Shown piece after piece: positions 52,601-63,290 of a DNA stretch of 64,000 nt. A model generated the notes under the pieces. It was not told where the DNA came from. It ran no database searches and was given only the letters and a program-made list of their open reading frames with translations. The translations under genes were made by a program, and so were the position numbers. Every line of letters starts with the position of its first letter. Position 1 is the stretch's first letter. Source of the DNA: an uncultured Pelagibacteraceae bacterium. GTDB lineage: Bacteria; Pseudomonadota; Alphaproteobacteria; Pelagibacterales; Pelagibacteraceae. The DNA is taken from the NCBI GenBank assembly GCA_902594405.1, contig CACJMB010000003.1, positions 1 to 64,000 of the forward strand, in the 5' to 3' direction.

Positions 52601-54097
52601 ATGTCTGAAATAGCTTTGCCAAAAGTTGATAGAACAGTAGTCAGTAAAAAAGACTTAATTGTAAATAATCTTAAACAATTTACCGATAAAAAAAATGTTT
52701 TAAGTGAATTAGATGAAATAAGACCTTACGAAACAGATGCACTAGCTGCTTACAAAAATTTACCTTTAGCCGTTGTACTACCTGAAAATACTCAGGAAGT
52801 AAGTGAGATATTAAAGTTTTGCCATAGAGAAAATATTAAAGTTATTCCAAGAGGAGCAGGAACTGGTCTTTCAGGTGGAGCTCTTCCATTAAATGATGCA
52901 ATTTTATTAGGACTTGGAAAATTTAATAAAATTTTAGATATAGATTTTGATAACAAGTGTGTTGTTACTCAACCGGGTGTTACAAATTTATCAATTACTC
53001 ATGCAGTTAAGCATAAGGGATATTACTATGCCCCAGATCCTTCAAGTCAGTTAGCTTGCTCAATAGGTGGAAATGTTGCTGAAAACTCCGGAGGTGTTCA
53101 TTCATTAAAATACGGAACCACAACAAATAACATTTTAGGAGTTGAGATGGTTATGATGGATGGAACTATTTGTAGAATAGGTGGAAAAACTTTAGATCAA
53201 GAGGGATACGATTTATTAGGACTAATCTGTGGATCTGAAGGATTGTTAGGTGTGATTACAGAAGTGACAGTTAAAATTTTAAAAAATCCACAAACTGTTA
53301 AAGCTGCTTTAATTGGTTTTCCAACAATTGAAGACGGAGGGAATTGTGTAACAGATATTATTTCAAATGGAATTACACCAGCAGGTATGGAAATAATGGA
53401 TAAAGCTTTAATTGATGCAACAGAGAAATTTGTTCATGCAGGTTATCCCATGGATGCCGAAGTTTTAATGATTGTTGAACTTGATGGAACGAAATCTGAG
53501 GTGGAAGAATTGTTTAAACAAATAAAACAAATAGCAGAAAAAAATAAATCAAATAGCTTTAAGTTAAGTAAAAATGAAAAAGAAAGATTAGGATTTTGGT
53601 CAGGAAGAAAAGCAGCTTTTCCCGCATGTGGAGCAATGGCACCTGATTATTATTGTATGGATGGAACAATTCCGAGAGGAAAGCTTTCAGAAATTCTTAA
53701 AGAGATAAGTAGATTATCAAAGAAATATAATTTGGGAGTAGCAAATGGTTTTCATGCTGGAGATGGTAATTTACATCCATTAATTCTTTTTGATGGAAGC
53801 AATAAAGAGGAACTTAGAAGAACAGAGGAATTTGGTGCTGAAATTCTTAAAGCTTGTGTCAGAATGGGTGGAGCATTATCTGGTGAACATGGGATAGGAA
53901 TTGAAAAAAGAGAGTTAATGTGTGAAGCATTTAATGACAATGATATTCAGCAACAAATAAATATTAAAATGTCATTAGATGAAAAAAATCTTTTAAATCC
54001 TGGAAAAGTTTATCCAATATTAAGAAAATGTGCGGAGGAAGGAAGAGTTCATGTTCACAGAGGAGAAGAAAAATTCCCAGATCTTCCAAGATTCTAA
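52601..54097 (+). CDS. glcD: Glycolate oxidase FAD subunit GlcD
   Basis: A 498-residue FAD-linked oxidase. The PP-type FAD domain has VIPRGAGTGLSGGALP, CVVTQPGVTNLSI and ACSIGGNVAENSGGVHSLKYG. The C-terminal FAD-oxidase domain has GFHAGDGNLHPLI and GALSGEHGIGIEKRELM. GlcDEF oxidises glycolate to glyoxylate at the membrane. It overlaps the glcE start by 47 bases. Confidence 0.96.
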   Translation: MSEIALPKVDRTVVSKKDLIVNNLKQFTDKKNVLSELDEIRPYETDALAAYKNLPLAVVLPENTQEVSEILKFCHRENIKVIPRGAGTGLSGGALPLNDAILLGLGKFNKILDIDFDNKCVVTQPGVTNLSITHAVKHKGYYYAPDPSSQLACSIGGNVAENSGGVHSLKYGTTTNNILGVEMVMMDGTICRIGGKTLDQEGYDLLGLICGSEGLLGVITEVTVKILKNPQTVKAALIGFPTIEDGGNCVTDIISNGITPAGMEIMDKALIDATEKFVHAGYPMDAEVLMIVELDGTKSEVEELFKQIKQIAEKNKSNSFKLSKNEKERLGFWSGRKAAFPACGAMAPDYYCMDGTIPRGKLSEILKEISRLSKKYNLGVANGFHAGDGNLHPLILFDGSNKEELRRTEEFGAEILKACVRMGGALSGEHGIGIEKRELMCEAFNDNDIQQQINIKMSLDEKNLLNPGKVYPILRKCAEEGRVHVHRGEEKFPDLPRF

Positions 54098-55322
54098 TCA
54101 TCTGTCACCCACAAGTGAGTTAGAGGTTTCAGAACTAATCAAAGAAGCTTATAAAAAAAAATTTCCAATTGATATTCACGGAAGTAATAGTAAAAAATTT
54201 ATTGGATATAATGTTCAAGCGGCAAAGAGCTTAGATTTTTCAAGTTTATCTGGAGTAATCGAATATCTTCCTGAGGAGCTGTATATAAAGGTCAAACCAG
54301 GAACACTGATAAAAGATATAGAAAATATTTTAGAAAAAAATAATCAAGAACTTTCATTTGAGCCAACTGATTTTGGTTACCTTAAAGAAGGAAAATCAAA
54401 TAAAGGGACGGCTGGCGGATGTGTTTCTTGCAATTTTGCAGGCTCAAGAAGATTTAAAGTAGGTAGTGTAAGAGATTTTATTTTAGGTTTTAGAGGGGTC
54501 AATGGAAAGGGCGACATAATTAAATCAGGAGGCACAGTTGTTAAAAATGTGACTGGATATGATTTATCTAAATTAGTTAGTGGTTCTTTTGGAACATTGG
54601 TTGCTCTTACAGAAGTCACTTTAAAAATCTCAGCAAAAAAACCATCTCAAAATACAATTATTATTTATGAGAAAGATCCAAAAATAATTTCAGACTTATT
54701 TAATATGGTTTTGAGTTCTAGCAATGAAATATCAGGTGCAGTGTTTGTACCAGATGAACCCAAATCTAAAAAATTCACACCAAATAAAAGTAAAGCATTT
54801 AAATTAAATGATTTAGATCAAGAGGGTGCTTTTTTTGCATTTAGAATTGAAGGGGATCAAAATTCTATTAAGGAAAGAATTAAGGATATTTCAAACGAAA
54901 TGAATTTAAAAAAATACAAAACATCAAATTTAGATATTTATCAATCCGATCTTTTTTGGAAAAGTATAAATAGTTTACAATTATTTTCTGAAACCAAAAA
55001 TAATCTTTTAAGAGCAGTTGTGCCTCCTTCAAAGTCTGAAAAAATGATGAGTTTTCTCAATAATAAATACAGATATTTTATTGATTGGTCTGGGGCATTA
55101 TTTTGGATTGAGGTACCTGGTGATCAAAATATAAAAGAAGTAAAAAATACAATAATTCAAAATAACGGATATGTAACAATAATTAAAAAATCCGAGGATT
55201 TTGAATTTACAGAAAAATTATTTACGATTGATGATACAAAATTAATGATATCAAAAAAAATCAAAGAAAGTTTTGACCCTAGAGGATTATTTAATCCTGG
55301 AAAAATGTATAAGGACTTTTAA
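54051..55322 (+). CDS. glcE: Glycolate oxidase FAD-binding subunit GlcE
   Basis: A ~423-residue FAD-binding protein lacking the catalytic C-terminal domain of GlcD. PIDIHGSNSKKFIG, IKVKPGTLIKDIE, TAGGCVSCNFAGSRRFKVGSVRDFILG (as TAGGCVSCNFAGSRR) and GGTVVKNVTGYDLSKLVSGSFGTL (as VVKNVTGYDLSKL) match GlcE. ATG 54051 is preferred over GTG 54030 because a strong GGAGG (54034-54038) lies at suitable distance inside glcD. The stop overlaps glcF by one base. Confidence 0.93.
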   Translation: MFTEEKKNSQIFQDSNHLSPTSELEVSELIKEAYKKKFPIDIHGSNSKKFIGYNVQAAKSLDFSSLSGVIEYLPEELYIKVKPGTLIKDIENILEKNNQELSFEPTDFGYLKEGKSNKGTAGGCVSCNFAGSRRFKVGSVRDFILGFRGVNGKGDIIKSGGTVVKNVTGYDLSKLVSGSFGTLVALTEVTLKISAKKPSQNTIIIYEKDPKIISDLFNMVLSSSNEISGAVFVPDEPKSKKFTPNKSKAFKLNDLDQEGAFFAFRIEGDQNSIKERIKDISNEMNLKKYKTSNLDIYQSDLFWKSINSLQLFSETKNNLLRAVVPPSKSEKMMSFLNNKYRYFIDWSGALFWIEVPGDQNIKEVKNTIIQNNGYVTIIKKSEDFEFTEKLFTIDDTKLMISKKIKESFDPRGLFNPGKMYKDF

Positions 55323-56611
55323 TGCAAACAAGTTTCACAGAAACTCAACTTAAAGATAAAGACAATCAGTCTTCTGAAAAAATATTTAAAAAATGTGTTC
55401 ATTGTGGAATGTGTAACGCAACGTGTCCTACGTATGGAATTTTAGGAGACGAATTAGACGGCCCTAGAGGTAGAATTTATTTAATTAAAGATATGTTGGA
55501 AAATAATAAAAAGCCAACTGAAAAAGTTGTTAAACATATAGACAGATGTCTTTCATGCTACAGCTGTATGACTACATGTCCAGCTGGTGTTAATTACATG
55601 CATCTAATCGATCATGGAAAAAAATATATCGAAAAAAATTATGAAAGATCTACTTTTGATAAATTAATTAGATATTTTTTATCTATTACCCTTCCAAATA
55701 CTAAAGTTTTTAGACTATCAAGTTTTTTAGTTAAATTAAGTAAACCTTTTAAATTTTTAATGCCTTCAAGGATTAAAGATATGATCGATTTGATGCCAAG
55801 TAGTTTTCCAAAAAAAAATTTGCCAATTAAGGAAGTTTATAAAGCTTCAGGTAAAAAGAAAGTTGCAAGGGTAGCATTATTGACTGGTTGTGTACAAAAA
55901 GAAATATCTCCTCAAATAAATGAAGCAACAATAAGATTATTAAACAGACATGGTGTTGAGGTAGTTGTTCCAAAAAAAATTCGTTGCTGCGGATCATTAA
56001 ATCATCATTTAGGAAAAGAGGAAGATGCTCATCAAGATTTTAAAAATAATATTAATACTTGGTATGAGGAGCATCAAAAAGGTAATTTAGATGCAATTTT
56101 ATCAAATACATCAGGCTGTGGAACGACTATGAAAGATTATGGATTTATTTTTAGAGATGATAAAGAGCTTAGTAAAAAAGCTAAAGTGATATCTGATTTA
56201 ACAAGGGATATATCCGAATATATTTTTGATAGTTTAAAATTGGATATAAAATCAAAAGGAAAAAAATATAAGGTTGCTTATCACTCTGCATGCTCAATGC
56301 AGCATGGGCAAAAAGTTCATGCTCAACCAATATCTTTGCTTGAAAAAACTAATAATGAAATAATGGAAATACCAGAGGGACATATATGTTGTGGATCAGC
56401 AGGAACTTACAACATCTTACAATCAAAAATTGCAAAACAATTATTAGAGAAAAAAGTTAATAATATAGAGAGTTTAAATCCTGATTTTATTTCTACGGGA
56501 AATATTGGTTGTATTACCCAAATTTCTCATGGTACTAAAGTTCCTATATTACATACAATTGAAGTTTTAGATTGGTACACAGGCGGACCAAAACCTGAAA
56601 TTTTAAAATAG
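55322..56611 (+). CDS. glcF: Glycolate oxidase iron-sulfur subunit GlcF
   Basis: A 429-residue protein with two [4Fe-4S] ferredoxin motifs: CVHCGMCNATCPTYG near residues 25-39 and CLSCYSCMTTCPAG near 76-89. Two CCG domains follow, with RCCGSLNHH and HICCGSAGTYNIL. It relays electrons from GlcD/E to quinones. It is the last member of the glcDEF set, with hydroxy-acid dehydrogenases immediately downstream. Confidence 0.96.
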   Translation: MQTSFTETQLKDKDNQSSEKIFKKCVHCGMCNATCPTYGILGDELDGPRGRIYLIKDMLENNKKPTEKVVKHIDRCLSCYSCMTTCPAGVNYMHLIDHGKKYIEKNYERSTFDKLIRYFLSITLPNTKVFRLSSFLVKLSKPFKFLMPSRIKDMIDLMPSSFPKKNLPIKEVYKASGKKKVARVALLTGCVQKEISPQINEATIRLLNRHGVEVVVPKKIRCCGSLNHHLGKEEDAHQDFKNNINTWYEEHQKGNLDAILSNTSGCGTTMKDYGFIFRDDKELSKKAKVISDLTRDISEYIFDSLKLDIKSKGKKYKVAYHSACSMQHGQKVHAQPISLLEKTNNEIMEIPEGHICCGSAGTYNILQSKIAKQLLEKKVNNIESLNPDFISTGNIGCITQISHGTKVPILHTIEVLDWYTGGPKPEILK

Positions 56612-56616
56612 GATTT

Positions 56617-57570
56617 ATGAAAAAAGTTTTAATTACAAGACGTTTAATAAGAGAAAGTGAAGATAAAGCTTCTAAATTATTTGATGCGAAGTTTAATACT
56701 AATGATGAACTTTATTCTCAAAAAAAAATAATAGAAATGAGTGAAGGATGTGATGGAATTTTATCATCATTAACTGAAAAATTAGATGCAGAAACTATTA
56801 ATCAATTACCAAGCTCAGTAAAAATTATCTCTAATTTTGCAGTTGGATTTGGAAACATTGATTTAGAGGCAGCAAAAAATAGAGGTATAGCAGTAACAAA
56901 TACACCAGAAGTTTTATCAGATGCAACAGCAGAAATTGGAATTTTATTAATTTTAGGAGCATGTAGAAGAGCTTCCGAAGGGATTGAGTCTGCAAAAGAA
57001 GGTGGATGGAAATGGTCTGCTGATTATTTAATTGGAAAACAATTAACGGGAACAAGATTAGGAATTTTAGGTATGGGTCGTATTGGCCAAAAAATTGCAA
57101 AAATTGCAAAATCTTTAGGTATGGTTATTCATTATCATAATCGTTCAAAATTAAGTGAAGATAAAGAACAAGATGCAACATATCATGACAGTATAAAAAG
57201 TCTTTTTTCAGTCTCAGATGTTTTATCAATTTGTTGTCCAGCCACAAAAGAAACAGAGAACTTAATTAATAAAGAGACTGTTGAGTATTTTCCTAAAGGT
57301 GCTGTCATAACTAATGTTGCAAGAGGCGATATAGTTGATGATGAAGCTTTAATTGATGCATTGAATAGAAGAAAAATTTATGCAGCAGGATTAGATGTTT
57401 ATAAAAATGAACCAAATTTAAATCCTGGTTATTTAAAAATTCCAAGTGCTTTTGTTTTACCTCATCTGGGGAGTGCAACAAAAGATACAAGAATTGCAAT
57501 GGGAAATTTAGCAGTTGATAATCTAGATGAGTTTTTTAGAACTGGAAACTGTATCAATAAAGTAAATTAA
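56617..57570 (+). CDS. D-2-hydroxyacid dehydrogenase, glyoxylate/hydroxypyruvate reductase-like
   Basis: A 317-residue NAD(P)-dependent enzyme. IISNFAVGFGNIDLEAAKNRGI, TNTPEVLSDATAEIG, LGILGMGRIGQKIAK (the G-x-G-x-x-G site), ITNVARGDIVDDEAL with the catalytic Arg, and LPHLGSATKDTR with the catalytic His are conserved. The VLSDATAEI form favours glyoxylate reductase (GyaR/GhrB-like). It would reduce glyoxylate made by GlcDEF or act in reverse on hydroxypyruvate. Confidence 0.92.
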   Translation: MKKVLITRRLIRESEDKASKLFDAKFNTNDELYSQKKIIEMSEGCDGILSSLTEKLDAETINQLPSSVKIISNFAVGFGNIDLEAAKNRGIAVTNTPEVLSDATAEIGILLILGACRRASEGIESAKEGGWKWSADYLIGKQLTGTRLGILGMGRIGQKIAKIAKSLGMVIHYHNRSKLSEDKEQDATYHDSIKSLFSVSDVLSICCPATKETENLINKETVEYFPKGAVITNVARGDIVDDEALIDALNRRKIYAAGLDVYKNEPNLNPGYLKIPSAFVLPHLGSATKDTRIAMGNLAVDNLDEFFRTGNCINKVN

Positions 57571-57571
57571 A

Positions 57572-58486
57572 ATGTCTCAATCAATAGCTTTCATTGGTGT
57601 TGGCAACATGGGTTGTCCAATGGCTGAAAATTTAATGAAGGCAGGAAAATCTGTAAAAGTTTTTGATGTTTCAAAAAAAATGCTTGAGATTGCAAAAGAT
57701 AAAAATCTTAAGACAATTGAAAATTTAGATGACCTAATTACACATGATGTAGAAACAGTTATAACAATGCTTCCAGAGGGTAAGCATTCTAAGGAAGTTT
57801 ATTTAGGAGATAATGGAATAATAAATAAAGTATCAAAAAATTGTTTGCTAATTGATTGTTCAACAATTGATATTCAAACTTCTATTGAAATTGGAAAAAA
57901 AGCTTCAGAATTAGGAATTGAAATGATTGATGCGCCAGTTAGTGGCGGAGTAATGGGAGCCCAAAAAGCAACTTTAAATATAATGGTTGGTGGATCGAAA
58001 AAAGCATTTGAAAAAGCGCTCCCTTTATTAAAAATTATGGGAAAAAATATATTTCATGCAGGTGATTTAGGTAGTGGTAATGGTGCCAAAATTTGTAACA
58101 ACATGGCCTTAGGTATTGCAATGATTGCTGCTTCAGAGTCATTAATGTTAGCAAAAAGATTAAACATAGATATTAAAAAAGTTCATGAAATTATGAAAAA
58201 TGCATCTGGTAATAGTTGGCCAATTTCAGTGTATCCTCCTTTACCTGGTTTAATTGATGGTACACCCTCTAATAATAATTATCGTCCAGGTTTCTCTGCA
58301 GGAATGATGAATAAAGATCTTAAACTTGCAAATGATTGTGCCAAGAGTGTGAATGCAGAAACACCATTAGGAAAAATGGCTTTAGAAATTTATGACCAAT
58401 TTTGTAAAGATGGAAACGATACTAAAGATTTTTCAGCTATTTCTAAAGTTATAGGTGGTAGTGCTTGGGACTATCCCATTGATTAA
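57572..58486 (+). CDS. mmsB: 3-hydroxyisobutyrate dehydrogenase-like protein (MmsB)
   Basis: A 304-residue beta-hydroxyacid dehydrogenase. AFIGVGNMGCPMAENLMKAG is the cofactor site, MIDAPVSGGVMGAQKATL the substrate loop, and GSGNGAKICNNMALG carries the catalytic Lys (GNGAKICNN). The NASGNSWPISVYPPLPGL and NYRPGFSAGMMNKDL segments favour MmsB over tartronate semialdehyde reductase. It oxidises 3-hydroxyisobutyrate in valine degradation. The context of glyoxylate enzymes leaves tartronate semialdehyde reductase as an alternative. Confidence 0.85.
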   Translation: MSQSIAFIGVGNMGCPMAENLMKAGKSVKVFDVSKKMLEIAKDKNLKTIENLDDLITHDVETVITMLPEGKHSKEVYLGDNGIINKVSKNCLLIDCSTIDIQTSIEIGKKASELGIEMIDAPVSGGVMGAQKATLNIMVGGSKKAFEKALPLLKIMGKNIFHAGDLGSGNGAKICNNMALGIAMIAASESLMLAKRLNIDIKKVHEIMKNASGNSWPISVYPPLPGLIDGTPSNNNYRPGFSAGMMNKDLKLANDCAKSVNAETPLGKMALEIYDQFCKDGNDTKDFSAISKVIGGSAWDYPID

Positions 58487-58492
58487 AATAGT

Positions 58493-59581
58493 TTACTGTA
58501 AGTGTTTATAAATTGTTGTTCTTGAAACACCTAATTTCCTTGATGCTGCAGAAATATTATTTGTTTCATTAAATGTTGATCTAATTAAAACACATTTTTC
58601 TCTTTTAATTTTAGTATCTTCGCAATTTTTGCATGCAGAAGTTCTCTTTTCTGATTTTGTTTCAATAAATTTGTTTTCTTTAAAAATTTGACTTTTAACT
58701 ACAAACACAGATGAACCTAAATGGTCTGTGATCTTTAATGTCTTATTATTTAATAAATCTGATGCAATAGATGAAAATGAGTTAGTAAAAATTTTATTAA
58801 AATTTTCATTTTTTAGGTCAACCAATCCATTAAGCATTATTTTTGCATTGCTATTTGCACCTACAATTAGGCCATCTCCATTTACAGCTAATAATCCAAC
58901 ACTTGTTGTTGATAAATACTCTTGTCTAGGATGAAAAGATAAAATCAATTCATGTTCAAATTTTTTTAAAAATAACTTTGTTTCGATACTTCTAGTTGCA
59001 AGTTTGACTAAAGCCAGAGTGTGTTGTTCTCTTGACATATAGTCAGTTGAGGCATCTATAATTCCAATAGTTTTACCGTCATAATTGATTATTGGACTTG
59101 CGAAACAGGATATATTTTCATGTGCTATAAAAAAATGCTCTTTTCCAGAAACTATTGTTGGTTTTTTTAATTCAACGGATAATCCTAAACCATTTGTACC
59201 ACAGACTTTCTCAGCCCAAATAGATCCTGGTATTACAGTTTTACCTACATCTGTTTGAAGACAAGTTTTATCATAAATTGTATCAAGCACTAAACCATTC
59301 TCATCTGAATACGCGACCATAAAATTAGTACCAGCAATTTGAGAGTATAAAAGTTCTAATTCAGGAAGAACTATTTTTCTAAGAGCATCATTTTTTTCTT
59401 TAATCTCTTTTAATTCAATTGAAGATACGACGCTTTGTTTTGGATCTTGAAAGGGATTAAGCCCCTCAGCAATACACCTCGACCAGCTATCAGAAATTTC
59501 TTTGCCCATCTCATAAGACATCATTCCTCTTTTTTTTAGAATATTTTTAAATTCTTTACTTGTTGAAGATAAATTTCCCAT
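58493..59581 (-). CDS. AcoR-like transcription regulator: GAF, PAS-like, Cys motif, Fis-type HTH; no AAA+ domain
   Basis: A 362-residue regulator. Residues ~15-60 contain SDSWSRCIAEGLNP, typical of AcoR-type activators. A GAF domain (about 85-215) with VGKTVIPGSIWAEKVCGTNG and HENISCFASPI follows, then a PAS-like segment starting VGLLAVNGDGLIVGANS. C317, C320 and C330 (C-K-N-C ... C) may bind metal. The end, ISAASRKLGVSRTTIYKHLQ, is a Fis-type HTH. The sigma54-contact AAA+ domain of AcoR is absent. ATG 59581 is chosen; upstream Met codons run into the adh gene. It likely controls adh. Confidence 0.85.
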   Translation of the reverse strand: MGNLSSTSKEFKNILKKRGMMSYEMGKEISDSWSRCIAEGLNPFQDPKQSVVSSIELKEIKEKNDALRKIVLPELELLYSQIAGTNFMVAYSDENGLVLDTIYDKTCLQTDVGKTVIPGSIWAEKVCGTNGLGLSVELKKPTIVSGKEHFFIAHENISCFASPIINYDGKTIGIIDASTDYMSREQHTLALVKLATRSIETKLFLKKFEHELILSFHPRQEYLSTTSVGLLAVNGDGLIVGANSNAKIMLNGLVDLKNENFNKIFTNSFSSIASDLLNNKTLKITDHLGSSVFVVKSQIFKENKFIETKSEKRTSACKNCEDTKIKREKCVLIRSTFNETNNISAASRKLGVSRTTIYKHLQ

Positions 59582-59725
59582 TTTTGAAAGATAAATAAAA
59601 TTAAAGTGTTCAACAACTAACCACAGGTTGTATTTGTAAACTATTTGGACACTTAAAAGCGGCATTGACTCCATCGAACTTCGATTTTTTAATAAGGTTT
59701 TGAAAATTAAAAGGGAGAGAAAACG
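59582..59725. promoter_or_regulatory. Divergent control region between AcoR-like regulator and adh
   Basis: 144 bases. TTGACT (59665-59670) and TTTAAT (59688-59693), 17 bases apart, form a sigma70-like promoter for adh. The 13-base palindrome ATCGAACTTCGAT (59673-59685) fills the spacer. An imperfect inverted pair AAGTGTTC/GGACACTT lies upstream (about 59604-59611 and 59647-59654). GGGAGAG (59713-59719) is the adh ribosome-binding site. The palindrome and inverted pair are candidate operators. Confidence 0.5.
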
Positions 59726-60787
59726 ATGAAAGCACAGGTTTTGCACAAGTATGACCCAGAAATGAAAGAAAAAGTTTGGGTTACAGGCGAAGAAATGCCA
59801 GATCCAAAAATCGAAAAAGCATCAGATGTAATTGTTAAAATTGGTGCTGCAGGAGTTTGCAGAACAGATTTACATATTATTGAAGGAGTATGGAAACATA
59901 TTCAAGATCCAGATGGAACTTTATTACCATGTGTAATGGGACATGAAAATGCTGGATGGGTTGAGGATGTTGGTAAAGACGTAACTGATTTTAAAAAAGG
60001 TGATCCAGTTATTTTACATCCATTAATTTCAGGAACAGGTGGTACTTGTTTGGACTGCAGAAGAGGTAATGATATGCATGCTGCTTCTGGAGCATTTCCT
60101 GGATTAAGTATTAAAGAAGGTGGATACTCAGAGTTATTAAAAACAAGTGTTAGAAATTTAATTAAACTTCCAAAAGTTTTAGCACCTAAAGATGTTGCAC
60201 CTTTTTCAGATGCAGGTCTTACAGCTTATAGAGTTGTTAAAAAGGCAACTAGACATTTGTTGCCAGGTCAAAGCTGTACGATAATTGGTGCTGGAGGTTT
60301 AGGACATATTGCTATTCAATGTTTGAAAGCGATGTGTGCAGCTGACATTATTATTGTTGAGAAATCTGAAACAGCCTTAAAACATGCAATGGAACTTGGT
60401 GGTGATCACGGAGTTTTAATTGATGGAAATGAAATTGAAAAAGTTCAAGAACTAACTAAAGGAAAAGGTTCAGAAGCTGTTATCGATTTCGTAGGTGAAA
60501 AAGGATCTACTGCCATGGGAATTCAAATGACTTCTAATGGTGGTTTTTACTACATTGTTGGATACGGAGAAGAAATTAAATCATTAGCAGTTGATTTAAT
60601 TATTTCTGAAAAAACAATCGTAGGTAATTTAGTGGGAACGTGGTCTGAGTTATATGAATTGATGGAGTTAGCTGATCGAGGAAAAGTGAAGCTATCCATG
60701 CAAGAATATAAATTAGACGATGCTAATAAAGCGCTCCATGATCTTAACGACGGTAAGGTTAAGGGAAGAGCTGTTTTAGTTCCGTAA
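59726..60787 (+). CDS. Zinc-type NAD(P)-dependent alcohol dehydrogenase
   Basis: A 353-residue MDR. Catalytic zinc ligands are C45 (GVCRTDLH) and H73-E74 (GHENAGWVEDVG); D162 in DAGLTAYR takes the third position. The Rossmann motif is GAGGLGH (188-194). Of the four structural-zinc Cys positions, only C108 and C111 remain; the others are G105 and A119. The family oxidises primary or secondary alcohols and polyols. It heads the adh-SBP-permease set and has a strong Shine-Dalgarno. Confidence 0.92.
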   Translation: MKAQVLHKYDPEMKEKVWVTGEEMPDPKIEKASDVIVKIGAAGVCRTDLHIIEGVWKHIQDPDGTLLPCVMGHENAGWVEDVGKDVTDFKKGDPVILHPLISGTGGTCLDCRRGNDMHAASGAFPGLSIKEGGYSELLKTSVRNLIKLPKVLAPKDVAPFSDAGLTAYRVVKKATRHLLPGQSCTIIGAGGLGHIAIQCLKAMCAADIIIVEKSETALKHAMELGGDHGVLIDGNEIEKVQELTKGKGSEAVIDFVGEKGSTAMGIQMTSNGGFYYIVGYGEEIKSLAVDLIISEKTIVGNLVGTWSELYELMELADRGKVKLSMQEYKLDDANKALHDLNDGKVKGRAVLVP

Positions 60788-60813: not shown

Positions 60814-62352
60814 ATGAAAATAATGAAAACTTGCTTGACGGCTTTAATATCAAGTTTGATGATATTTAGTCCTATGGCATATGCTGATAAGTGGAGCGAT
60901 CAGTTTCCGCATATTAAAGCTACAGGAGATATTCCTGGTGACTGTTCTTATGAGAAGATGTCTAAGAAAAATTACAAAGGAAAAACTCTTAAAATAAATA
61001 CTCACGCAATACCGGTAATGGGTGAGCCAACAGCTCTACACGCTGAACAGTTTGAGAAATTAACTGGTGCAAAAGTTGAAGTTACACATACACCAGCAGG
61101 TGATTTGTACTCAAAAGCAATGGTTCCTTTCCAAGCTGGACAAGCTCCTTACGATGTTGTGTTTGGATTTTCTAACTTCATTAATGACTGGAAAAGATAT
61201 TTAGCACCAGTTCCTAAGAAGTATATGAACTCACCTGAGATGAAAGACGTAACAAAATCTCACATGGGTGTATCATCTTGGGATGGAACTATGTACCAAT
61301 ACCCAGTTGATGGTGACAGACATTATCTAAAATACAGAAAAGATGTCATTGATAATCCAGAAATGCAGAAGAAATATAAAGCTGACACAGGTAATGAGTT
61401 AAGAGTTCCAAGAACTTGGAAAGAATACGCTCAAATGGCTAAATATTTCAATGATTGGGATTGGGATGGAGATGGTGAAAAAGAATATGGTTCAGCTGAA
61501 GTTATGAAAAAAGATGACTTAATGTTTGCAGCTTTTTTCAGCAGATCAGTTGCTTATGCTAAAAACCCTAGAACTCCAGGTGGTTTCTTTTTTGATTTAG
61601 AAACTATGAAACCAAATATCAATAACCCAGGTTTTGTTGAAGCATTAACTGATTGGGTTGAAGCTACTAAATATGTTCCTCCAGGAGGAACTAACTTTGG
61701 TCTAGGTGATGAAATCGGATCATTTGGTGGTGGACAAACTTTATTTAGTTTCTCTTGGGACGATGCATTTATTGCAGCAATGCAAGATGATAGCCCAATT
61801 AAAAATAAAGTTGGTGCAGCTCCACTTCCAGGCGCTGATAGAGTTTGGAACAGAGTTACAAATAGCTGGGAAAACCAATACAACCAAGCTCCTTACATTG
61901 TTTGGGGTTGGGCTGTAGGTGTTGCTAAGAAAAGTAAAGTAAAAGATATGGCATTTGATTATCTTTGCTTCTTTTCTAATGGTGCAAACCACCAAGCTGA
62001 TTTAGCTATTGGTAGATTTGGTGTTAACCCATTTAAAAACTCAGACTTTGACCCTAACATTTATATTAATAGTATGGGTTGGGATCCAGAGATCGCTAAC
62101 AGTTACACTCAAACACTTTTAGATATGGAAAAAAGTAATAACAGAGTTTTCCCTTTAAGAGTTCCAGGTGTATTTGAATTTACAAGTGCTGTTGCTACAG
62201 GAACTTCAAAAGCTTTAGCAGGACAATTATCTCCTCAAGAAGCTTTAGACGAAGTTGCTAAAGAGTGGGAAGCAATTGTAAGCAGAGTAGGTAAAAAAGC
62301 AGTTCAAGATGCCTATGCTGTTGGTGTTAAAATGGAAGACAACAAGCTATAA
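60814..62352 (+). CDS. ABC transporter family-1 extracellular solute-binding protein
   Basis: A 512-residue periplasmic protein with signal peptide MKIMKTCLTALISSLMIFSPMAYA. KINTHAIPVMGEPTALHAEQFEKLTG (beginning KINTHAIPVMG), VVFGFSNFINDW, NDWDWDGDGEKEYG (Ca-type loop D216-x-D218-x-D220) and WGWAVGVAKKSK are visible. The fold and MalF/MalG partners point to a sugar, polyol or glycoside ligand. A purine-rich GAGAGAGG (60801-60808) precedes ATG 60814, implying strong translation. The adjacent dehydrogenase suggests that an alcohol or polyol is imported and oxidised. Confidence 0.9.
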   Translation: MKIMKTCLTALISSLMIFSPMAYADKWSDQFPHIKATGDIPGDCSYEKMSKKNYKGKTLKINTHAIPVMGEPTALHAEQFEKLTGAKVEVTHTPAGDLYSKAMVPFQAGQAPYDVVFGFSNFINDWKRYLAPVPKKYMNSPEMKDVTKSHMGVSSWDGTMYQYPVDGDRHYLKYRKDVIDNPEMQKKYKADTGNELRVPRTWKEYAQMAKYFNDWDWDGDGEKEYGSAEVMKKDDLMFAAFFSRSVAYAKNPRTPGGFFFDLETMKPNINNPGFVEALTDWVEATKYVPPGGTNFGLGDEIGSFGGGQTLFSFSWDDAFIAAMQDDSPIKNKVGAAPLPGADRVWNRVTNSWENQYNQAPYIVWGWAVGVAKKSKVKDMAFDYLCFFSNGANHQADLAIGRFGVNPFKNSDFDPNIYINSMGWDPEIANSYTQTLLDMEKSNNRVFPLRVPGVFEFTSAVATGTSKALAGQLSPQEALDEVAKEWEAIVSRVGKKAVQDAYAVGVKMEDNKL

Positions 62353-62426: not shown

Positions 62427-63290
62427 ATGAATTTTAAGCATAAATATTTCTTTCTGTTCCCAGGTTTATTTGTATTGATAGGAATACTAATTTTTCCAAT
62501 TATTTTCGTAGTTAGATTAAGTTTATCAGGATGGAATAGTTATAATCCTGGTTTAGATTACATAGGATTTGAAAATTACATAAGATTATTCACTGATGAC
62601 CCAAGATTTTGGGAATCATTTTTTAGATTAAGTTTTTTATCAGTTACAACAGTTATCTTACAATATGTGATTGGTTTTGCACTGGCACATATGGTTTGGA
62701 AAGATATTAAATTTAAAAGATTTTTTAGAGTTCTTTTTTTAGTTCCAATGATGACAACTCCAGTGATCATGACAGTTATTTGGAGAACTTTTTTTCATGA
62801 ATCATTAGGACCGGTAAATGATTTGTTATCAGTTTTTGGTGTAGCTCCCAAGTGGTTGACAGATCCAGTTATTGCAAAATTTACAGTCATAATAGTTGAG
62901 GTATGGCAATGGACACCATTTATGTTTTTACTTTTATTAGCAGGGTTGTTGTCATTACCTAAAGAACCATTTTTGGCTGCTGCGATTGATGGTGCTAGTC
63001 CAGTTAGAAAATTCATATATGTAACATTTCCATTGATGGCCCCCATCTCAATTGGAGCAATAATTATAAGGTTAATTGAGGCATCAAAGATTATGGATAC
63101 AGTTTATGTATTGACCTCAGGTGGTCCAGGTACCTCTACCGAAACTTCAAGTTTTTATATCTTTATTAAAGGATTGAGAGAATTTCAGATGGGTTATGCA
63201 GCGTCGATGTCATTTACTTACTTAATAATCATGATCATAAGTCTAACTATTATAGCAAAAGTATTAACTAAAGTTTTATTAAAAGAATAA
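62427..63290 (+). CDS. ABC sugar-type transporter permease, MalF/UgpA-like
   Basis: A 287-residue permease with six helices. IFPIIFVVRLSLSGWNSYNPG opens it (starting at about residue 22), and the EAA-loop for ATPase contact reads AAAIDGASPVRKFIYVTFPLM. VLTSGGPGTSTETSSFYIF is typical of the CUT1 family. No Shine-Dalgarno is obvious. It lies 75 bases beyond the binding protein. Confidence 0.93.
   Translation: MNFKHKYFFLFPGLFVLIGILIFPIIFVVRLSLSGWNSYNPGLDYIGFENYIRLFTDDPRFWESFFRLSFLSVTTVILQYVIGFALAHMVWKDIKFKRFFRVLFLVPMMTTPVIMTVIWRTFFHESLGPVNDLLSVFGVAPKWLTDPVIAKFTVIIVEVWQWTPFMFLLLLAGLLSLPKEPFLAAAIDGASPVRKFIYVTFPLMAPISIGAIIIRLIEASKIMDTVYVLTSGGPGTSTETSSFYIFIKGLREFQMGYAASMSFTYLIIMIISLTIIAKVLTKVLLKE

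Follow-up and report, generated by a model that had tools for sequence, protein, structure and literature searches.

SAR11 cells contain few transcriptional regulators. The stretch of DNA analysed here (the window) is 64,000 nucleotides long and comes from an uncultured Pelagibacteraceae bacterium of this group. It encodes a protein that looks like an AcoR/DhaR-type activator without an AAA+ domain. How can such a protein act, and on what target? We consider it quite probable that it activates a single target, the divergent adh-ABC operon (Table 1), with sigma-70 and in a class I-like manner, that it was derived from an AcoR/DhaR-type sigma-54 enhancer-binding protein by excision of the AAA+ domain, that its GAF-PAS part senses an alcohol or carbonyl, and that it has a Cys3(-His) metal site.

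Table 1. Positions, in the window, of the regulator gene and its parts, the presumed control sites and the divergent operon
Feature	Position	Strand	Basis or remark
Regulator gene, 362 aa	58493..59581	-	N-terminal helical part, GAF, PAS, Cys linker and Fis HTH, without AAA+
N-terminal helices and GAF domain, residues 1-207	58961..59581	-	Pfam GAF 75-199; DhaR(N) fold
PAS-like domain, residues 208-297	58691..58960	-	Alignment; AlphaFold strands/helices 212-296; Foldseek DhaR(N), 311 columns
Short variable linker, residues 298-316, place of excised AAA+	58634..58690	-	Alignment gap; pLDDT <50 at 300-312
Conserved Cys cluster C317-x2-C320-x9-C330	58592..58633	-	AAA+-less homologues and Cys-type AAA+ relatives
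Fis-type trihelical HTH, residues 324-362	58496..58612	-	Pfam, AlphaFold, homologue comparison
H360, end of recognition helix, candidate fourth metal ligand	58502-58504	-	Conservation
Inverted repeat ACAAC-N9-GTTGT	59613..59631		66/70 distinct SAR11 intergenic regions
Putative operator TGTAAACTATTTGGACA (TGTnnA-N5-TnnACA)	59635..59651		Conservation
-35-like TTGACT	59665..59670	+	65/70 TTGACT, spacing 70/70
Weak -10-like TTTAAT, 17-bp spacer	59688..59693	+	Inferred from alignment
Zn-dependent medium-chain alcohol dehydrogenase (adh), target gene	59726..60787	+	
ABC substrate-binding protein (SBP), same operon	60814..62352	+	Order shared with Tabrizicola, Ponticoccus
ABC permease	62427..63290	+	Genes of another permease and two ATPases come next in the contig, at or past the end of the window

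The original prediction held that the gene encodes an AcoR-type regulator stripped of its ATPase, and domain searches bear this out. The protein matches the Pfam GAF family (26.2 bits, cut-off 22.4), and residues 333-361 match the Fis-type HTH_8 family slightly below its cut-off of 22 (21.4 bits, E 2e-4). The same Pfam scan finds no Sigma54_activat and no other AAA+ domain. Walker A/B motifs and the GAFTGA loop are absent from the protein and from all its AAA+-less relatives. The best NCBIfam match is DhaR (NF008485), at 73.9 bits, far below the 551-bit cut-off of that family. An AlphaFold model has a mean pLDDT of 85.2, and in a fold comparison, whose rows cover mainly residues 57-207 with the HTH part outside them, DhaR(N) is the clear top match (Z 26.8 vs 16.3 for the next). 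The two superpose at 1.6 A over 184 residues with 19% identity (model residues 25-211), and the Foldseek alignment extends the likeness through the PAS-like domain. As modelled, the N-terminal GAF-PAS fold is thus a DhaR/AcoR-type sensor. A GTG start further upstream (417 aa) was rejected; it would overlap adh, and in many homologues the open frame reaches only a few residues upstream of the ATG at 59581. E. coli DhaR acts at a sigma-70 promoter. It has the architecture GAF-PAS-AAA+-Fis HTH (PDB 4lrx, 4lry and 4lrz, N-terminal part) and shares the GAF-PAS sensor with the SAR11 protein, but it retains the AAA+ domain and its operon is dhaKLM rather than adh-ABC.

The partner that an activator of this type would need is also missing. 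A profile search finds no Sigma54_DBD (rpoN) in this genome, as had been suspected, and none in any of nine genomes that carry the AAA+-less regulator. These comprise five from SAR11 (this genome, G000, with G424, G082, G012 and G530, the latter four near-complete) and four from a second small-genome marine alphaproteobacterial lineage (G172 and the genomes of loci L083, L085 and L090). By contrast, rpoN is present in all six genomes examined that have AAA+-bearing relatives of the regulator. Only one other sigma-54-type AAA+ gene occurs in the genome, an NtrX-like gene with a receiver domain (L001, G000:C1:206897-207385). Its presence would allow the regulator to borrow an ATPase in trans, or perhaps another sigma factor, instead of acting alone at sigma-70. 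This is very improbable: NtrX has no GAFTGA loop, the genome has no rpoN, the target has no -24/-12 box (see below), and sigma-70 and sigma-32 are reportedly the sole sigma factors of SAR11 (PMC13198564).

Where the regulator came from can be read from its relatives. It is found in 11 of 150 SAR11 relatives and in 22 of 298 genomes of the order; 80 regulator loci are among those listed in named genomes. Every SAR11-group homologue with a complete gene lacks AAA+, as does the regulator of the second marine lineage (47-50% identity). The nearest full-length proteins, with 36-43% identity over GAF-PAS, are encoded on alphaproteobacterial plasmids and in two further genomes, G436 and G776. Aligned with these, the SAR11 protein is the full-length form minus AAA+; one clean gap separates PAS from the Cys cluster. 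The original prediction had PAS and the Cys motif replacing the ATPase. This is not the case, since PAS and, just ahead of the HTH, a C-x2-C-x9-C motif occur in the full-length relatives too; both are the ancestral neighbours of an AAA+ domain that was excised between them. The relatives that bear AAA+ likewise contain PAS in the alignment.

The AAA+ domain itself shows intermediate states. It is intact, with PF00158 scores of 191-195 bits and Walker A/B present, in Aminobacter and Rhizobium (GAFTNA loop) and in G472, which has GAFTGA and no Cys cluster. It has decayed in Tabrizicola (45 bits), G436 (28 bits) and G776 (23 bits), where GAFTGA is gone and Walker B is altered, and the Ponticoccus regulator, with the same two defects, gives no PF00158 match, nor does the SAR11 protein. 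The regulators of G436 and G776 (L102, L121) keep a Walker A-like motif in a strongly decayed AAA+ and represent a middle stage.

A tree was built on GAF-PAS and Cys-HTH, with the AAA+ columns excluded. The AAA+-less proteins of SAR11 and the second marine lineage form one clade (support 100/97), which adjoins Ponticoccus and G436/G776 (97/91) within a larger clade of Cys-bearing proteins (99/96); canonical GAFTGA regulators fall outside the latter. We define this larger clade as the Cys-type adh regulators, and the SAR11 protein shows both of its marks, C-x2-C-x9-C before the HTH and an adjacent orthologous adh. A second tree on a reduced set of rows has the same arrangement, its support values being a little lower (99/96, 92/96 and 89/88). 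The tree placement, together with the GAF-PAS fold and the Fis HTH, supports an AcoR/DhaR-type ancestry, in line with the prediction. Tabrizicola clusters weakly with the sigma-54 rows (84/27), and because the branches to the decayed-AAA+ rows are long, decay may have occurred more than once. Short GAF-Fis proteins without AAA+ also occur in Ruegeria TM1040 (L097) and Sphingomonas (L098), where they adjoin aldehyde/alcohol dehydrogenase genes as the SAR11 regulator adjoins adh. These proteins, which lie outside the rows of the tree, are, however, only 25-28% identical to it and have no Cys cluster; an origin from them is not favoured, and they probably reached this architecture independently.

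The SAR11 ADH is 62.7-66% identical to the ADH adjoining full-length regulators, and Tabrizicola and Ponticoccus, with a full-length regulator, have the same divergent order of regulator and adh-SBP-permease-permease-ATPase-ATPase. In the rhizobia Aminobacter and Rhizobium the same adh lies near a propane-monooxygenase-type cluster, and in Bradyrhizobium and Caballeronia the orthologous adh adjoins such clusters.

The promoters of these orthologous genes follow the state of the AAA+ domain. Genes whose regulator has an intact AAA+ show a near-perfect sigma-54 box upstream of adh, with scores of 12.5-12.7 of 13.2 and a shuffle p of 0.007 or less. With a decayed AAA+, or none, the score is at chance level, and at the SAR11 target the best -24/-12 box scores 7.5 of 13.2 (p ~0.79). 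A stepwise series can still be read from the sequences: intact AAA+ with a sigma-54 promoter, decayed AAA+ without that promoter, and no AAA+. It was originally proposed that a sigma-54 activator had been stranded by loss of its partner. The partner is indeed absent, but the data do not support its loss as the only cause: the full-length relatives nearest to SAR11, among them the rpoN-bearing G436, show decay of both AAA+ and the sigma-54 promoter.

Upstream of the SAR11 adh there is a putative operator, assigned, like the -35-like hexamer, by its conservation. All 70 distinct SAR11 intergenic regions contain it, and the distance to that hexamer is 13 bp in each; the chance of the pattern is ~0.5% per 300 bp. 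The site at 59635 is the sole perfect match in the 1.25 Mb genome. A genome-wide regulon scan shows no excess of near matches (18 vs 28 for a reversed-pattern control). The operator is also present in every class of relatives, matching TGTYYA-N5-TRRACA either fully or at all but one or two positions, and Aminobacter and G436/G776 have in common two sites 32 bp apart. At rhizobial sigma-54 loci the matching sites are at least roughly 55 bp upstream of the -24 box; the centre of the SAR11 operator would fall near -57 of the presumed adh start. An enhancer motif TGT-N10-12-ACA has been reported for AdhR and other bEBPs (PMC6615313), which the SAR11 operator (TGT-N11-ACA) fits. The -10 is weak, and a scan with a consensus promoter model did not call the adh promoter. 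Nonetheless, a -35-like hexamer at fixed spacing and the lack of a -24/-12 box speak for the sigma-70-like target that was predicted, and the geometry of the site fits a sigma-70 class I activator.

AAA+-free one-component regulators are often repressors, and if the promoter has been misplaced, its poor -10 could be an artefact. Perhaps, then, the protein represses the adh operon and is released by its ligand. We regard this as unlikely, as the operator lies entirely upstream of the -35 at an invariant distance, which is an activator layout, the ancestor was of an activator type, and the promoter has no strong -10. Class I-like activation by a DNA-bound dimer would better account for the arrangement.

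The operator is linked to the regulator. Wherever the regulator has been retained the operator is retained too, and nine of ten SAR11-group adh loci without a regulator lack both the operator and TTGACT, though these nine are mostly near-copies and represent few independent events. At the tenth locus (L148) the regulator is gone and the operator and TTGACT are kept, as after recent loss. The adh genes without a regulator (L146-L155) have a different leader and lie directly 3' of FAD-oxidase-like and D-2-hydroxyacid dehydrogenase genes. In one sublineage, SDR genes inserted before adh or replacing it have taken over the same operator-promoter. At L049, and by position at L050, an SDR-family dehydrogenase gene lies between the operator-promoter and adh; at L054 an SDR gene is in place of adh, of which a 3' fragment is left, and no adh is seen at L006 or L057 either.

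The patchy occurrence of the gene (11 of 150 relatives) and a premature stop in one homologue, that of G853, might suggest a truncated remnant on its way to loss. This is hardly tenable. The regulator has an overall dN/dS of 0.05-0.09, that is, strong purifying selection, and so is not a decaying remnant; a pseudogene is rejected on the same values. Retention of the operator wherever the regulator persists, and one old origin common to two lineages, also speak against it. By part, dN/dS is 0.01-0.10 for Cys-HTH and 0.06-1.2 for the linker left by AAA+; GAF and PAS are likewise strongly selected. The stop in the G853 homologue (L123) is an in-frame TAA that removes the very end of the recognition helix, which may reflect a pseudogene or an assembly error.

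The three cysteines have the positions and spacing originally described, and are invariant in all 114 AAA+-less homologues with an intact C-terminus (67-68 distinct tails); the linker just ahead of them shows 30-54% identity at most positions. All Cys-type AAA+ relatives have the cluster as well, and a SAR11 novelty is thereby rejected. A Tyr-x-His motif ends the recognition helix in 113 of the 114, the exception being the stop-shortened protein, and this His is found in every Cys-type member with a complete end; among the compared members that lack the Cys cluster, a His at the helix end occurs in just two. The pattern suggests a C3H metal site formed by the Cys trio and H360. Since the His accompanies the Cys in every member, a structural metal site appears more probable than a redox switch. 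NifA of alpha- and beta-proteobacteria also has conserved Cys near the HTH or AAA+, but with other spacing, and NifA is sigma-54 dependent and has an AAA+ domain (PMC10590331). Cys pairs within or after the NifA AAA+ domain have been linked to redox control (PMC10590331). That analogy, and the complete invariance of the Cys immediately before the DNA-binding domain, could mean that the cluster is a redox or metal sensor setting activity, with GAF-PAS secondary. We find this doubtful: the cluster predates the loss of AAA+, H360 is conserved with it, as fits a structural site, and GAF and PAS are under strong selection as well. Moreover, Gluconacetobacter NifA has a Cys pair ahead of its HTH, the nearest analogue to have been tested, and its DNA binding was the same whatever the redox state (PMC10590331), which again favours structure over redox sensing. 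The cluster is thus probably a structural metal site.

The sequences themselves show the descent from a sigma-54-dependent AcoR/DhaR-type enhancer-binding protein, from which the AAA+ motor was cut out between PAS and the Cys-HTH end, the absence of sigma-54 and its promoter, and a conserved operator that keeps a fixed distance to the -35 and goes with the regulator. DNA binding, activation as opposed to repression, the ligand and the metal are proposals, and the protein would work as follows. A dimer of the present regulator may bind the operator (59635-59651), an enhancer-type site inherited from the ancestor that now lies ~57 bp upstream of where the operon presumably starts, and help sigma-70 RNA polymerase in class I fashion; the promoter there has a good -35 but its -10 is poor. 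The trigger would be an alcohol or carbonyl that binds to GAF-PAS; this ligand is suggested by adh itself and by analogy with alcohol-responsive relatives such as BmoR (PMC8784404). The Cys3(-His) cluster would bind a metal and stiffen the stand-alone HTH. Alcohol-responsive bEBPs of the AcoR/BmoR type, which adjoin or control alcohol genes (PMC7017808, PMC8784404), and AdhR of Clostridium beijerinckii share the GAF(-PAS) sensor and Fis HTH, but depend on sigma-54 and on an AAA+ ATPase. The SAR11 system has neither, and its operator adjoins a -35-like box. A literature search on SAR11 AcoR returned nothing relevant, and one on AAA+-less GAF-Fis regulators gave general sigma-54 papers only.

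Sigma-54 and sigma-70 promoters differ in mechanism, and where a regulator has crossed between the two types, usually only the end points are known, as for NtrC without GAFTGA. A more detailed reading, in which we have about even confidence, is that the sigma factor changed in steps within one orthologous operon. AAA+/GAFTGA and the -24/-12 promoter would have decayed while the lineage still had rpoN; then the motor would have been excised and the enhancer become promoter-proximal at fixed spacing, with a Cys3-His metal site holding the HTH. If this is correct, coupling to sigma-54 was lost before rpoN and not after. Other bEBPs without GAFTGA act at sigma-70 promoters, namely NtrC of Rhodobacter capsulatus and Caulobacter, and VspR (PMC10274813). 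These are also sigma-54 family members changed to sigma-70, as proposed here, but they retain the AAA+ domain that is deleted from the SAR11 regulator. It should be added that intact, decayed and motor-free forms of the regulator coexist beside the same target, each with its promoter, so that the steps are testable by part swaps. The locus also shows a local, one-target regulator maintained by selection in SAR11 despite the small number of regulators there.

On the other side of the regulator, and facing it, the window contains genes for a 3-hydroxyisobutyrate dehydrogenase and a glyoxylate-reductase-like protein together with several that resemble glycolate oxidase genes (GlcF 440.9 bits), all within 52601-58486.
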